Source: Phreatobacter sp. (GTDB lineage Bacteria > Pseudomonadota > Alphaproteobacteria > Rhizobiales > Phreatobacteraceae). Taken from it: 64,000 nucleotides of DNA. The position numbers were made by a program, and so were the translations under genes. The notes under the pieces were generated by a model. The model made no database searches. It had not been told where the DNA came from and saw nothing but the letters and a program-made list of their open reading frames with translations. Below are positions 15,227 to 20,601 of this stretch, piece after piece (positions within the stretch are counted from its first letter, which is position 1; each line of letters begins with the position of its first letter). The stretch lies in contig NZ_JALHMP010000005.1 of assembly GCF_022843985.1 (NCBI RefSeq), positions 1 through 64,000 on the forward strand. Direction: 5' to 3'.

Positions 15227-16810
15227 TCAGGCGCCGGGATGGTACTGGTAAAGCCAGCTCTCGGAAGCGACCTGGTCGCCGACCCGGAGATAGCAACGCA
15301 TCTCAACGGGTTCATTGCCTTCGACCCTGAGGTCGAACTGGGTGCGCCAGTGGCCCGGCACGTCGTTGGGCACCGCTTCGGTATATTGATAGTCCCCGAA
15401 GGTGCCGCGCGAGGTCCAGAGAACCGGTTTTGGGATGGTGCCCTTGGGCAGGTTGACCAGCGGCCCGCCCTTGAACTCGACGAGGAACTTGCGCACGCCC
15501 TGCGGCCGGGGCTGGCCCGGCTGGCCGCCCCGGCCGAGGCGCGTGGCGACGACCCGGGCGAGCGGCGTCGGATAGGGCTCGTCGGCGAGCCAGTGCAGCC
15601 GGTAGCGGAATTCGAGCGGCCGGCCCGGTTCGGCGGGGGCCTCCGGCACCCACATGGCGACGATATTGTCGTGGATCTCGTCGTCAGTGTTGAGCTCGAC
15701 GAGCTGCACCGCGCCACGCCCCCAGTCGCCCTGCGGCTCGACCCAGGCCGAGGGGCGCTTCTCGTATTTGACGCCGTCGAGATAGTGCAGGAACTCGCGG
15801 TCGCGCTGCAGCAGGCCGAAGCCGCGCGGCGTCCGGTCGACGAAGCTCGAGGTCATGGTCCGCGGCGGGTTGTTGAGCGGCCGCCAGATGCGCTCGCCCT
15901 GGCCGGTCCAGATGGCGAGACCGTCGGAATCGTGGACTTCCGGACGCCAGTCGATGGTGCGCGAGCTGACGGTTTCCGAATACCAGTACATGGAGGTCAG
16001 CGGCGCGATGCCGACATGGGTGACGGTGCGGCGGAAATGCAGCGTCGCCTCGATGTCCATGACGACCCCGCTGGTGCGCCGGCATAGGAAGCGGTAGGCG
16101 CCGGTCAGCGAGGGCGAATCCATCAGCGCATAGAGCGTGACGGGATCGGCTTCGCTCGCCGCCGGGGCGACCCAGAATCCCACGAAATCGGGGAATTCCT
16201 CCGGGCCGGGCGCCTGGCCAGGGGAAAGGGCGAGGCCGCGCGCCGACAGGCCGACCTGGCCGAGTTCGCCGACGCCGCGGAAATAGGAGGCGCCGAGCCA
16301 GGTGGCCCAGGGCTCCTGCGTCTTCCACGGGCCGGACTTCGCCTCCTGCAGCCACAGGCCGGCGAAGGCCGAGGGTTCGGGCGGCAAGGCGGCGGCGGGG
16401 TGGTCGGGCAGAATGGTGAAATAGCGCGGATCGTAGACGATCTCGCGCGCCGTCTGGCCTTCGACAACGTGCATGTGGACCGTCTTCGGGAAGAACTGAC
16501 CGACATGCTGGAAGGTGACGGGATAGGCGCCCGGCCCCTCGGCGAACAGCGCCACGTCCTTGTCGAAGCGCAGCTTGCCGTGATTGTCGTAGTCGATGCG
16601 GCTGACGACCTGCGGGTTCGGGCGGGACGGCGGAACATAGGGCTTGCCGGCAGCGGCCAGAGCCATCTGTTTCAGGACGTCGTAGGAAAATGGCTTCGCC
16701 GTCCCGAAGCGCAGGGCGGTGGCGGCGGTCGCCCCACCGGGCAGGGCAGGGGCGAGGCCCGCTGCCGCAGCGATGGTCAGGAGGTTCCGGCGGGACAGGG
16801 TGTGGATCAT
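15227..16810 (-). CDS. Periplasmic glucan biosynthesis protein, OpgG/OpgD (MdoG/MdoD) family
   Basis: 527 residues with a twin-arginine signal (SRRNLL near residue 7, hydrophobic stretch, cleavage near GATAA), then the OpgG beta-sandwich domain starting TALRFGTAKPFSYDVLKQMA and continuing to the C-terminal immunoglobulin-like domain. The family shapes the backbone of osmoregulated periplasmic glucans. A Tat rather than Sec signal is typical of the OpgD branch, but the alphaproteobacterial single-copy protein is usually called OpgG/MdoG. No glycosyltransferase opgH gene lies alongside. Its end is 13 bases from the convergent PspA-family gene. Confidence 0.9.
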   Translation of the reverse strand: MIHTLSRRNLLTIAAAAGLAPALPGGATAATALRFGTAKPFSYDVLKQMALAAAGKPYVPPSRPNPQVVSRIDYDNHGKLRFDKDVALFAEGPGAYPVTFQHVGQFFPKTVHMHVVEGQTAREIVYDPRYFTILPDHPAAALPPEPSAFAGLWLQEAKSGPWKTQEPWATWLGASYFRGVGELGQVGLSARGLALSPGQAPGPEEFPDFVGFWVAPAASEADPVTLYALMDSPSLTGAYRFLCRRTSGVVMDIEATLHFRRTVTHVGIAPLTSMYWYSETVSSRTIDWRPEVHDSDGLAIWTGQGERIWRPLNNPPRTMTSSFVDRTPRGFGLLQRDREFLHYLDGVKYEKRPSAWVEPQGDWGRGAVQLVELNTDDEIHDNIVAMWVPEAPAEPGRPLEFRYRLHWLADEPYPTPLARVVATRLGRGGQPGQPRPQGVRKFLVEFKGGPLVNLPKGTIPKPVLWTSRGTFGDYQYTEAVPNDVPGHWRTQFDLRVEGNEPVEMRCYLRVGDQVASESWLYQYHPGA

Positions 16811-16910: not shown

Positions 16911-16939
16911 TTGACATTTCGCCGCACCTGGTGTTTTTC
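16911..16939 (+). promoter_or_regulatory. Candidate asd promoter
   Basis: TTGACA at 16911-16916 is a perfect -35; 17 bases later the -10 position reads TTTTTC, which is poor. If used, transcription would start near 16946, about 35 bases before the leader ORF and 214 before asd. Confidence 0.35.
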
Positions 16940-16981
16940 GCTGCCCTCACGGCACTTTCGCCGAGGACACCTCTCCGCGCC

Positions 16982-17050
16982 ATGGCTTTCGGTCGCACCA
17001 AAACGACGACGAAAACCAAGCCGGCCGCCACAGGCGGCACGGCAGGCTGA
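16982..17050 (+). CDS. Putative Thr/Lys-rich leader peptide of asd
   Basis: A 22-codon ORF (ATG 16982, TGA 17048-17050) whose residues 6-13 are only Thr and Lys (TKTTTKTK); in all it has 7 Thr and 3 Lys. Asd makes aspartate semialdehyde, the common precursor of threonine, lysine and methionine. Classical attenuation leader peptides, such as ThrL of enterobacteria, are short ORFs rich in the codons of the pathway products and placed just upstream. The ribosome-binding sequence is not strong (GAGGA about 14 bases before the ATG) and no U-rich terminator follows, so function is inferred only. It could be a chance ORF. Confidence 0.4.
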   Translation: MAFGRTKTTTKTKPAATGGTAG

Positions 17051-17065
17051 CGCTTCGTCCTCGCA

Positions 17066-17133
17066 ACCGGGTGCTCCCCCGACGGGGAGATGGGCGCCAC
17101 GGGACCCGGTGACGGGCCCCGATCCCGGGGGAG
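17066..17133 (+). promoter_or_regulatory. Competing hairpins in the asd leader
   Basis: CTCCCCC (17074-17080) can pair locally, CTCCCC with GGGGAG (17084-17089, 4-base loop), or with GGGGGAG further on (17127-17133). ACCGGGT (17066-17072) can pair with ACCCGGT (17104-17110). The first two pairings exclude each other. They begin 15 bases after the leader ORF stop and end 26 bases before the asd ATG. No run of T follows, so a transcription terminator is not evident. Confidence 0.3.
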
Positions 17134-17159
17134 AGTTGCAAGCCAAAGAGGCCAGAATC

Positions 17160-18197
17160 ATGGGTTACAAGGTCGCGATCGCCGGCGCCACGGGCAATGT
17201 GGGCCGCGAAATGCTCTCCATCCTCGAGGAGCGCGGGTTCCCCGTCTCGGAGGTCGTGCCGCTGGCCTCGCGCCGCTCCCTCGGCCAGGAGGTCTCCTTC
17301 GGCACCAAAACGCTGAAGGTCAAGGCACTGGAGAATTACGACTTTTCCGACACCGACATCTGCCTGATGTCCGCGGGCGGCGCGGTGTCGAAGGAGTGGT
17401 CGCCCAGGATCGCCGCCGCCGGCTGCGTCGTGATCGATAATTCCTCGGCCTGGCGCTATGAGTCGGATGTGCCGCTGATCGTGCCGGAGGTCAATGCCGA
17501 TGCCATCACCGGCTTCGCCAAGCGCAACATCATCGCCAATCCGAACTGTTCGACCGCCCAGCTTGTCGTGGCGCTGAAGCCGCTGCACGACCGTTTCGGC
17601 ATCAAGCGGGTGGTGGTCTCGACCTACCAGTCGGTCTCCGGCGCTGGCAAGGACGGCATGGACGAACTCGATCGCCAGACCAAGGCGCTCTATTCGATGA
17701 AGGACCCGGAGACCAAGAAGTTCCCGGCCCGCATCGCCTTCAACGTCATTCCGCACATCGACGTCTTCATGGAGGACGGCTCGACGAAGGAAGAGTGGAA
17801 GATGACGGTCGAGACCAAGAAGATCCTCGACCCGAAGATCCGGCTCACCGCGACCTGCGTGCGCGTGCCGGTGTTCATCGGCCATTCGGAGGCCGTCAAC
17901 ATCGAGTGCGAGCAGCCGATCACGGCGGATGAGGCCCGCGAGATCCTGCGGGCGGCGCCGGGCATCCTTGTCATCGACAAGCAGGAGAATGCCGGCTATG
18001 CGACGCCGCTCGATGCCGCCGGCGAGGACGCGACCTACATCTCGCGCATCCGCGAGGACGCGACCGTGGAGAACGGCCTCGCCTTCTGGTGCGTCTCCGA
18101 CAACCTGCGCAAGGGCGCGGCGCTGAACGCGGTGCAGATCGCCGAGGTGCTGGTCAACCGCAAGCTGATCCAGCCCCGGGCGAAAGCGGCGGCCTGA
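17160..18197 (+). CDS. asd: Aspartate-semialdehyde dehydrogenase
   Basis: 345 residues. N-terminal Rossmann motif (VAIAGATGNVGREML), catalytic cysteine in NPNCSTAQ (about residue 132), and the CVRVPVFIGHSEAVNIE segment of the catalytic/dimer domain. It reduces aspartyl-4-phosphate to aspartate 4-semialdehyde with NADPH, the branch point to lysine, threonine and methionine; lysA, which acts at the end of the lysine branch, lies 1 kb downstream on the other strand. The ATG at 17160 follows AAAGAGG with 8-base spacing. A strong hairpin terminator follows the gene. Confidence 0.96.
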   Translation: MGYKVAIAGATGNVGREMLSILEERGFPVSEVVPLASRRSLGQEVSFGTKTLKVKALENYDFSDTDICLMSAGGAVSKEWSPRIAAAGCVVIDNSSAWRYESDVPLIVPEVNADAITGFAKRNIIANPNCSTAQLVVALKPLHDRFGIKRVVVSTYQSVSGAGKDGMDELDRQTKALYSMKDPETKKFPARIAFNVIPHIDVFMEDGSTKEEWKMTVETKKILDPKIRLTATCVRVPVFIGHSEAVNIECEQPITADEAREILRAAPGILVIDKQENAGYATPLDAAGEDATYISRIREDATVENGLAFWCVSDNLRKGAALNAVQIAEVLVNRKLIQPRAKAAA

Positions 18198-19335: not shown

Positions 19336-20601
19336 CTACAGCCAGTCGGGCAGGCGATCCATGGCAATGATGGCCTCGACGTCGAATCTCGGCCGCACCA
19401 CCGCATAGTCGGCGCCGCGTACCAGCACTTCCGGCGACAGGGGCCGCGTGTTGTACGTGCCGGCCTGGACTGCGCCATAGGCGCCGGCCGTCATCACCGC
19501 GAGCAGGTCGCCGGGCCCGACCGCGGGAAGCTTGCGGCCGAGGGCGAGATAGTCGCCGCTCTCGCAGATGGGACCGACCACGTCCACTTTCGGCTTCGGC
19601 GCGCCGGGAGCGGGTTCGCGCACCGGCCGGATCTCGTGGTGGGCGTCATAGAGGGTCGGGCGGATGAGGTCGTTCATGGCGCCGTCGACGATGACGAAGG
19701 TGTGCCCCTCCGTCTCCTTCACATAGATGACGCGGGTGACGAGAATGCCGGCATTGCCGACCATCATGCGGCCGGGTTCCATGATGACCCTGGCGCCGAG
19801 GCTTGCCGTGTGGCGTTTCACCACCTCGGCATAGCGGATGGGATCGGGCGGCGGGGCATTGTCGTCGCGGTAGGGGATGCCGAGGCCTCCGCCGACATCG
19901 ACATGGTCGATGGCGTGGCCGTCGGCCCTGAGCGTCCCGACGAATTCCGCCAGCAGGGCATAGGCGTCGTCGAAAGGCTGCAGGTCGGTGATCTGCGAGC
20001 CGATATGCATGTCGACGCCGGCGATGTGGATGCCGGGGAGCTTGGCGGCGCGGGCATAGGCCTCGCGGGCGGTGGAGATCGGAATGCCGAACTTGTCGCC
20101 CTTCTTGCCCGTGGAGATCTTGGCGTGGGTCCGGGCGTCGACGTCGGGATTGACGCGGAAGGAGACATGCGCCGTGCGTCCGAGCGCCGTGGCGACGCGG
20201 GAGAGCTGGGCGACCTCCGGCTCGCTCTCGACATTGATGCAGAAGACGCCGGCCTCAAGGGCCGCGGCATGTTCGGCCTCGGTCTTGCCGACACCGGAGA
20301 ACATGATCCGGTCCCCGGGCACCCCGGCCGCCAGCGCCCGCTTCAGCTCGCCGCCGGAGACCACGTCCATGCCGGCGCCGAGCCGCGCCAGGGTCTTGAT
20401 GACGGCCTGGTTGGAATTGGCCTTCATCGCGTAACAGACGAGGAAATCGAGCCCGGCAAAGGCCTCCGAGAAGACGCGATAGTGCCGCTCCAGCGTCGCC
20501 GTGGAATAGCAGTAGAAGGGCGTGCCGACCTCGGCCGCGATGGTGTCCAGCGGCACGTCCTCGGCGTGAAGGCGGCCGTCACGATAGGCGAAATGATGCA
20601 T
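19336..20601 (-). CDS. lysA: Diaminopimelate decarboxylase
   Basis: 421 residues of the fold-III PLP decarboxylases. The PLP lysine is in CYAMKANSNQ (about residue 60); HIGSQ, the glycine-rich phosphate loop DVGGGLGIPY, and CESGDYLA at the dimer-completing site are all present. It converts meso-diaminopimelate to lysine in the cytoplasm. It is preceded on the same strand by lptM with a 46-base gap, the usual alphaproteobacterial order (argH-lptM-lysA), but argH is not here. Confidence 0.96.
   Translation of the reverse strand: MHHFAYRDGRLHAEDVPLDTIAAEVGTPFYCYSTATLERHYRVFSEAFAGLDFLVCYAMKANSNQAVIKTLARLGAGMDVVSGGELKRALAAGVPGDRIMFSGVGKTEAEHAAALEAGVFCINVESEPEVAQLSRVATALGRTAHVSFRVNPDVDARTHAKISTGKKGDKFGIPISTAREAYARAAKLPGIHIAGVDMHIGSQITDLQPFDDAYALLAEFVGTLRADGHAIDHVDVGGGLGIPYRDDNAPPPDPIRYAEVVKRHTASLGARVIMEPGRMMVGNAGILVTRVIYVKETEGHTFVIVDGAMNDLIRPTLYDAHHEIRPVREPAPGAPKPKVDVVGPICESGDYLALGRKLPAVGPGDLLAVMTAGAYGAVQAGTYNTRPLSPEVLVRGADYAVVRPRFDVEAIIAMDRLPDWL

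Follow-up and report, generated by a model that had tools for sequence, protein, structure and literature searches.

A threonine/lysine-rich leader upstream of asd in Phreatobacter and other Hyphomicrobiales, a likely ribosome-mediated attenuator that lacks a terminator

In Phreatobacter sp. (assembly GCF_022843985.1) the gene for aspartate-semialdehyde dehydrogenase, asd (17160..18197, forward strand; Pfam PF01118 and PF02774 matches), is preceded by a short ORF rich in Thr and Lys codons. We consider it likely that this ORF is the leader of a ribosome-mediated Thr/Lys attenuator of asd, which has no terminator in this organism and whose most likely point of action is the translation of asd. 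That an attenuator of some kind operates at asd is very probable, while a translational output is favored only somewhat above an even balance. Coordinates refer to the window, i.e., the whole stretch of DNA that was analyzed (64,000 nucleotides, positions 1 to 64,000 of contig NZ_JALHMP010000005.1).

The leader ORF (16982..17050, forward strand) encodes MAFGRTKTTTKTKPAATGGTAG and ends with TGA; it has 22 codons with 7 Thr and 3 Lys, and the asd ATG (17160) is 109 nt downstream of its end. Leader codons 6-13 (16997..17020, forward strand) read TKTTTKTK and are the presumed sensing codons. A preliminary description of this DNA had listed the 22-codon ORF, the octamer, the Thr and Lys counts and the 109-base gap, all of which are exact on the sequence, and the absence of a T run between the leader and asd was likewise confirmed. 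TKTTTKTK is the only in-frame Thr/Lys octamer in the genome. Across all 4.33 Mb, the genome contains three runs of eight A[C/A]N codons (encoding Thr, Lys or Asn); the two apart from the leader octamer are out-of-frame readings of His-rich coding stretches.

Upstream of the leader there is a promoter-like arrangement (16911..16939, forward strand) with TTGACA at 16911-16916, a 17-nt spacer and TTTTTC at 16934-16939, which may drive its transcription. The sequence TTGAC[A/T] and a GTGTT-rich stretch are conserved in the genus alignment and are also present in other families; a consensus promoter scan upstream of the leader called no promoter. The candidate Shine-Dalgarno sequence of the leader, GAGGA within CGAGGAC (16962..16968, forward strand), is conserved in the genus and sits 14 nt before the leader ATG, which is rather far. 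A divergent MdoG-family gene (15227-16810) lies on the opposite side of the leader from asd. About 1.1 kb beyond asd, behind a carbonic anhydrase gene, is a diaminopimelate-decarboxylase-like gene (lysA, lysine pathway; 19336-20601, reverse strand).

The Thr/Lys ORF, initially described from this one sequence, recurs in related genomes, both within the order and outside it. The nearest named relatives of this asd come from Phreatobacter MAGs. All 12 Phreatobacter genomes have a Thr/Lys ORF of 22-23 codons located 106-123 nt upstream of asd. The genus alignment shows that leader start, stop and spacing are kept and that Thr and Lys codons swap positions between species; an additional Thr codon, in frame, is present in one genome. 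In Phreatobacter the Thr/Lys run ends nine codons before the stop, and the codon third from the end is a conserved Thr codon; in many species the run extends to the leader stop. For broader comparisons, a locus was counted as positive if the 300 nt preceding asd contained a startable frame with at least 6 Thr/Lys in a stretch of 10 codons. Positive loci make up 112 of 197 in a set that counts some genomes twice; the same criterion selected 5 of 3940 dinucleotide shuffles and none of the 197 reverse strands. With near-duplicates removed, 68 of 138 Hyphomicrobiales asd loci are positive. These leaders are found in 28 of the 49 Hyphomicrobiales families, including that of Phreatobacter (one or few genomes were sampled per family), and the named genera that have them include Rhabdaerophilum, Bosea, Methylobacterium, Microvirga, Pinisolibacter and Mesorhizobium. 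Across the order, asd begins a median of 111 nt after the leader stop.

Some of the leaderless lineages (L160, L170, L181, L025 and others) have a LeuB-like C-terminus directly upstream of asd, and Bradyrhizobium-like loci share a different upstream motif, TCGCATAGAAGCGCTC. Three genomes of family f35 (G045, G120 and G150) each encode two asd homologues, the second being ~44-45% identical to the query.

The product of Asd is the precursor of both Thr and Lys. When amino-acid pairs upstream of asd are ranked, Lys+Thr is at the top (55 loci), followed by Ala+Thr (32 loci). In leaders picked by Thr alone, the remaining residues are 44.6% Lys, 7.4% Ile and 2.0% Met with no Asn; since Asn is absent, the enrichment is not merely a run of A-initial codons. 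Lys is present in every one of the 70 non-redundant positive leaders (picked by Thr plus Lys), and 65 of them contain two or more Lys within the last 16 codons. The leader peptides share a composition but not a sequence; conservation of composition rather than of the peptide indicates codon sensing, and by comparison of sequences the leader resembles a sensor of Thr and Lys that works through their codons. The preliminary description had read the ORF as a ThrL-like leader peptide, and this reading is supported by the order-wide enrichment of end-product codons upstream of asd.

Alternatively, the ORF might sense neither amino acid and either encode a small protein under conservation or arise as a side effect of a structured 5' UTR; RNA structure that is conserved in its own right (see below) would be compatible with this. 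We regard this explanation as scarcely credible: the peptide sequence is unconserved beyond its Thr/Lys content, the top-ranking pair, Lys+Thr, is that of the pathway to which the downstream gene belongs, and complete attenuators are present in other orders.

Thr/Lys leaders also precede asd in two other alphaproteobacterial orders, at 11 of 16 and 10 of 30 loci. A terminator-like hairpin with a U-run follows the leader at 19 of these 21 loci, but at only 1 of 70 leader loci in the Hyphomicrobiales (Fisher p ~2e-16) and in 0 of 210 shuffles. The terminator-bearing leaders are L245-L253, L255 and L258 in the order of G193, and L262, L265, L270, L271, L273, L275, L277 and L280 in the order of G199. 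In most of them a post-stop arm is complementary to the 5' arm of the terminator (2:3/3:4 logic). At L248, for example, the leader stop is followed by CGCGCGGCC and then by AAAGGCCGCATCCAGATGCGGCCTTTTTGTTTTT, and the post-stop GCGGCC can pair with the terminator 5' arm. A ribosome at the leader stop would cover the post-stop arm in these orders, allowing the terminator to form, and a ribosome stalled on the Thr/Lys codons would leave that arm free, preventing termination. The presence of both terminator and antiterminator strongly, albeit indirectly, supports an attenuator function for the Thr/Lys leader.

In Phreatobacter, an intrinsic terminator scan from the leader to asd identified neither a terminator nor a U-tract. 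The preliminary description had anticipated control through translation or Rho rather than through an intrinsic terminator, which fits the near absence of terminators from the 70 Hyphomicrobiales loci. There is an evenly balanced case for the idea that the Thr/Lys leader switched its output in evolution, with a terminator in some orders and a fold that engages the asd ribosome-binding site in the Hyphomicrobiales.

RNA structures between the leader and asd were evaluated with an alignment-free test, in which pairing between segments of the same species was compared with pairing to the partner segments of other species, with permutation. For three hairpins (H1, P2 and P3) and for the pairing of post-stop and pre-Shine-Dalgarno segments, 0 to 6 of 5000 permutations each were equally strong, with the caveats that base composition may correlate between segments and that related species are not independent. 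One segment pair without an evident role also reached z -3.4, so values near -3 are not decisive. Segments A and B overlapped by six bases in one permutation run; in the other they were disjoint and segment B overlapped D5, and pairs involving B and D5 together were excluded as evidence.

Hairpin H1 is predicted at the 3' end of the leader ORF (17020..17043, forward strand), folding as GCCGGCCGCC-ACA-GGCGGC-A-CGGC. Its species-matched pairing across the order is pronounced (z -6.2 and -7.0; 0/5000 permutations), and within the genus there is a G-C to A-T double change in L011 and a C-G to T-G change in four members. P2 (17074..17089, forward strand) joins CTCCCC (17074-17079) to GGGGAG (17084-17089) on the basis of sequence and fold and is invariant in the genus; its order-wide values are z -3.9 and -5.3 (0/5000). 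P3 (17100..17121, forward strand), which lies between P2 and a purine-rich segment, folds in 12 of 12 genus members with stems that differ among them (e.g., CGGATCGCC/GGCGATCCG and CGAAACCTT/AAGGTTTCG), and has an order-wide z of -5.7.

The purine-rich segment, CCCGGGGGAGAG (17124..17135, forward strand), is strongly conserved in the genus, is located ~24-25 nt before the asd ATG, and forms the 3' arm of a predicted long-range helix, P1, with CTCGCAACCGGG (17060..17071, forward strand) as the 5' arm. Its partner can be 17060-17071 or 17074-17081. Pairing between post-stop and pre-Shine-Dalgarno segments is species-matched across the order (z -3.4 and -4.5), and a long-range pairing test over 70 loci yielded 0 of 20000 permutations that were equally strong. 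A finer map of the two segments has an antidiagonal ridge of species-matched complementarity (z to -4.0), the pattern expected of a helix. P1 and P2 are nearly invariant within the genus, making the genus comparison uninformative for both. When 45 relatives were aligned by sequence and folded with RNAalifold, the long-range helix alone emerged; the hairpins shift register and are missed by this approach, hence the use of alignment-free permutation tests. The predicted fold energy of the leader-asd RNA is z -1.9 relative to shuffles, which by itself is no proof of structure. The classical 2:3 helix, between the H1 3' arm and the post-stop stretch, has no species-matched support in the Hyphomicrobiales (z +1.1 to +1.7).

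Within the post-stop stretch, the anti-Shine-Dalgarno-like GTCCTCG (17057..17063, forward strand) shows conservation across Phreatobacter and in a number of related families and is within reach of a ribosome sitting at the leader stop. It is complementary to CGAGGAC (16962-16968) on the other side of the leader, and similar matches occur in L055, L161 and L091. In the species-matched pairing test, the leader-5' region and the post-stop segment gave z -3.4 (2/5000 permutations). Pairing of these two sequences across the leader is suggestive only; it might curb successive rounds of leader translation.

The Shine-Dalgarno sequence of asd is more likely AAAGAGG (17145..17151, forward strand) than GGGGGAG (17127-17133): the latter is ~25 nt away from the ATG, and a better fit is given by AAAGAGG or AAGGG. 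In the predicted fold, the last bases of AAAGAGG pair with 17045-17048 at the leader stop, and this outer helix is not uniformly kept among Phreatobacter. The preliminary description had proposed mutually exclusive pairings of CTCCCC with GGGGAG, or of CTCCCCC (17074-17080) with GGGGGAG (17127-17133). Both pairings are possible by sequence, but strict exclusivity is improbable, as GGGGGAG in predicted folds pairs mostly with CTC..CCGGG (17060-17071). The modeled folds suggest that the two pairings of the CTCCCC(C) region are probably partly compatible, and in the Hyphomicrobiales the post-stop pairing and P2 often are.

The sole one of the 70 Hyphomicrobiales loci with a terminator-like hairpin and U-run, L022 (G038), has P2 followed by the U-rich TTTGTTTT just before asd, and may represent an intermediate stage or a reversion to transcription attenuation. 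Both this arrangement and the location of P2, which occupies the place of the terminator in other orders, could be taken to mean that P2 is a terminator that works without a U-tract. Such transcription attenuation is very unlikely given how rarely a U-run follows the hairpin in the Hyphomicrobiales (1/70 loci) relative to the other orders (19/21).

The main rival to a translational output is Rho-dependent termination governed by the same Thr/Lys leader, in which a C-rich Rho site after the stop would be exposed or hidden by the ribosome and by folding. Among leader-peptide systems, tnaC and mgtL are precedents for such an output. A C-rich stretch, CTTCGTCCTCGC...CTCCCCC, does occur right after the leader stop and is conserved in relatives, and there is no intrinsic terminator between the leader and asd. 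Rho termination alone, however, would not require the species-matched long-range pairing with sequence ahead of the asd Shine-Dalgarno, and we consider this explanation unlikely, though less so than termination at P2.

We favor control of translation, as follows. A promoter upstream of 16982 would produce an mRNA whose first ORF is the Thr/Lys-rich leader, which we infer to be translated in Phreatobacter. If charged tRNA-Thr or tRNA-Lys were scarce, ribosomes would stall within the leader; if both were plentiful, they would reach the leader stop and then depart. Ribosome position over the leader 3' end and the first post-stop nucleotides would set the fold of the leader-asd RNA. In the closed default state the post-stop stretch would pair with the purine-rich segment and the Shine-Dalgarno region of asd, and in the open state a ribosome held at the leader end would block this pairing, such that a shortage of Thr or Lys would raise asd output. 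Where the Thr/Lys run reaches the stop, the stalled ribosome would itself cover the post-stop stretch. Given the missing U-tract, translation initiation is the step at which the fold most probably acts, although the purine-rich segment is at the edge of the asd ribosome site (~25 nt before the ATG). In simulations that masked the RNA with a ribosome on the Thr/Lys codons, accessibility of the asd Shine-Dalgarno sequence changed little, and masking at or just past the leader stop opened it clearly in only about one-quarter of the loci. Since these simulations gave no clean switch, the direction of control and the translational step are proposed with reserve.

Like thrL, trpL and hisL, the asd leader is rich in codons for pathway end products and is followed by RNA that may adopt alternative structures and then by a biosynthetic gene. 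It differs in that Phreatobacter and 69 of 70 Hyphomicrobiales loci have no intrinsic terminator. Furthermore, thrL contains Thr plus Ile codons, whereas Thr plus Lys codons are found here, and before asd alone. The combination of a leader ORF with an RNA fold able to engage the downstream ribosome-binding-site region resembles ermC-type translational attenuators, although here the signal would be charged tRNA and not a drug, and masking of the Shine-Dalgarno sequence is partial in predicted folds. The Rfam 'asd' RNA motif of lactic acid bacteria is also located near asd; scans with Rfam covariance models yielded no match in the 64-kb window, nor in the leader-asd region even at E 5.

A related leader had already been proposed in Sinorhizobium meliloti. 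The sORF SEP5, with six Thr and three Lys codons clustered in the 5' UTR of an 'aspartate dehydrogenase' gene, is translated (based on Ribo-seq and Western blot) and was termed 'possibly a leader peptide' and 'conserved only in Sinorhizobium' (PMC10117765). The remark in the preliminary description that no leader peptide was known to it for alphaproteobacterial asd must be amended in view of that proposal (PMC10117765). The gene downstream of SEP5 is probably asd. The likeness, a short ORF with clustered Thr/Lys codons upstream of an asd-type gene, is drawn from the published description and presumes that the Phreatobacter leader is transcribed as part of a 5' UTR. SEP5 was reported from Sinorhizobium only and without RNA structure, whereas leaders of the Phreatobacter type occur in 28 of 49 families and in other orders and have a recognizable RNA anatomy. 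Literature searches on asd attenuation in alphaproteobacteria returned nothing beyond the SEP5 remark; subscription papers were mostly outside the search, and priority is uncertain.

Asd is the branch-point enzyme on the way to lysine, threonine, methionine and the diaminopimelate of the cell wall, and the attenuator, if real, would explain how asd is tuned in many alphaproteobacteria, including rhizobia and methylobacteria. To our knowledge, leader peptides that read Lys codons have hardly been described, and a leader reading Thr and Lys together would constitute a two-input sensor of a branched pathway. SEP5, an orphan sORF thought to be limited to Sinorhizobium, would join a wide family. 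With one type of leader that occurs with a terminator in some orders and without it in a sister order, the alphaproteobacteria would offer a natural experiment on how attenuation shifts from transcription to a different step.
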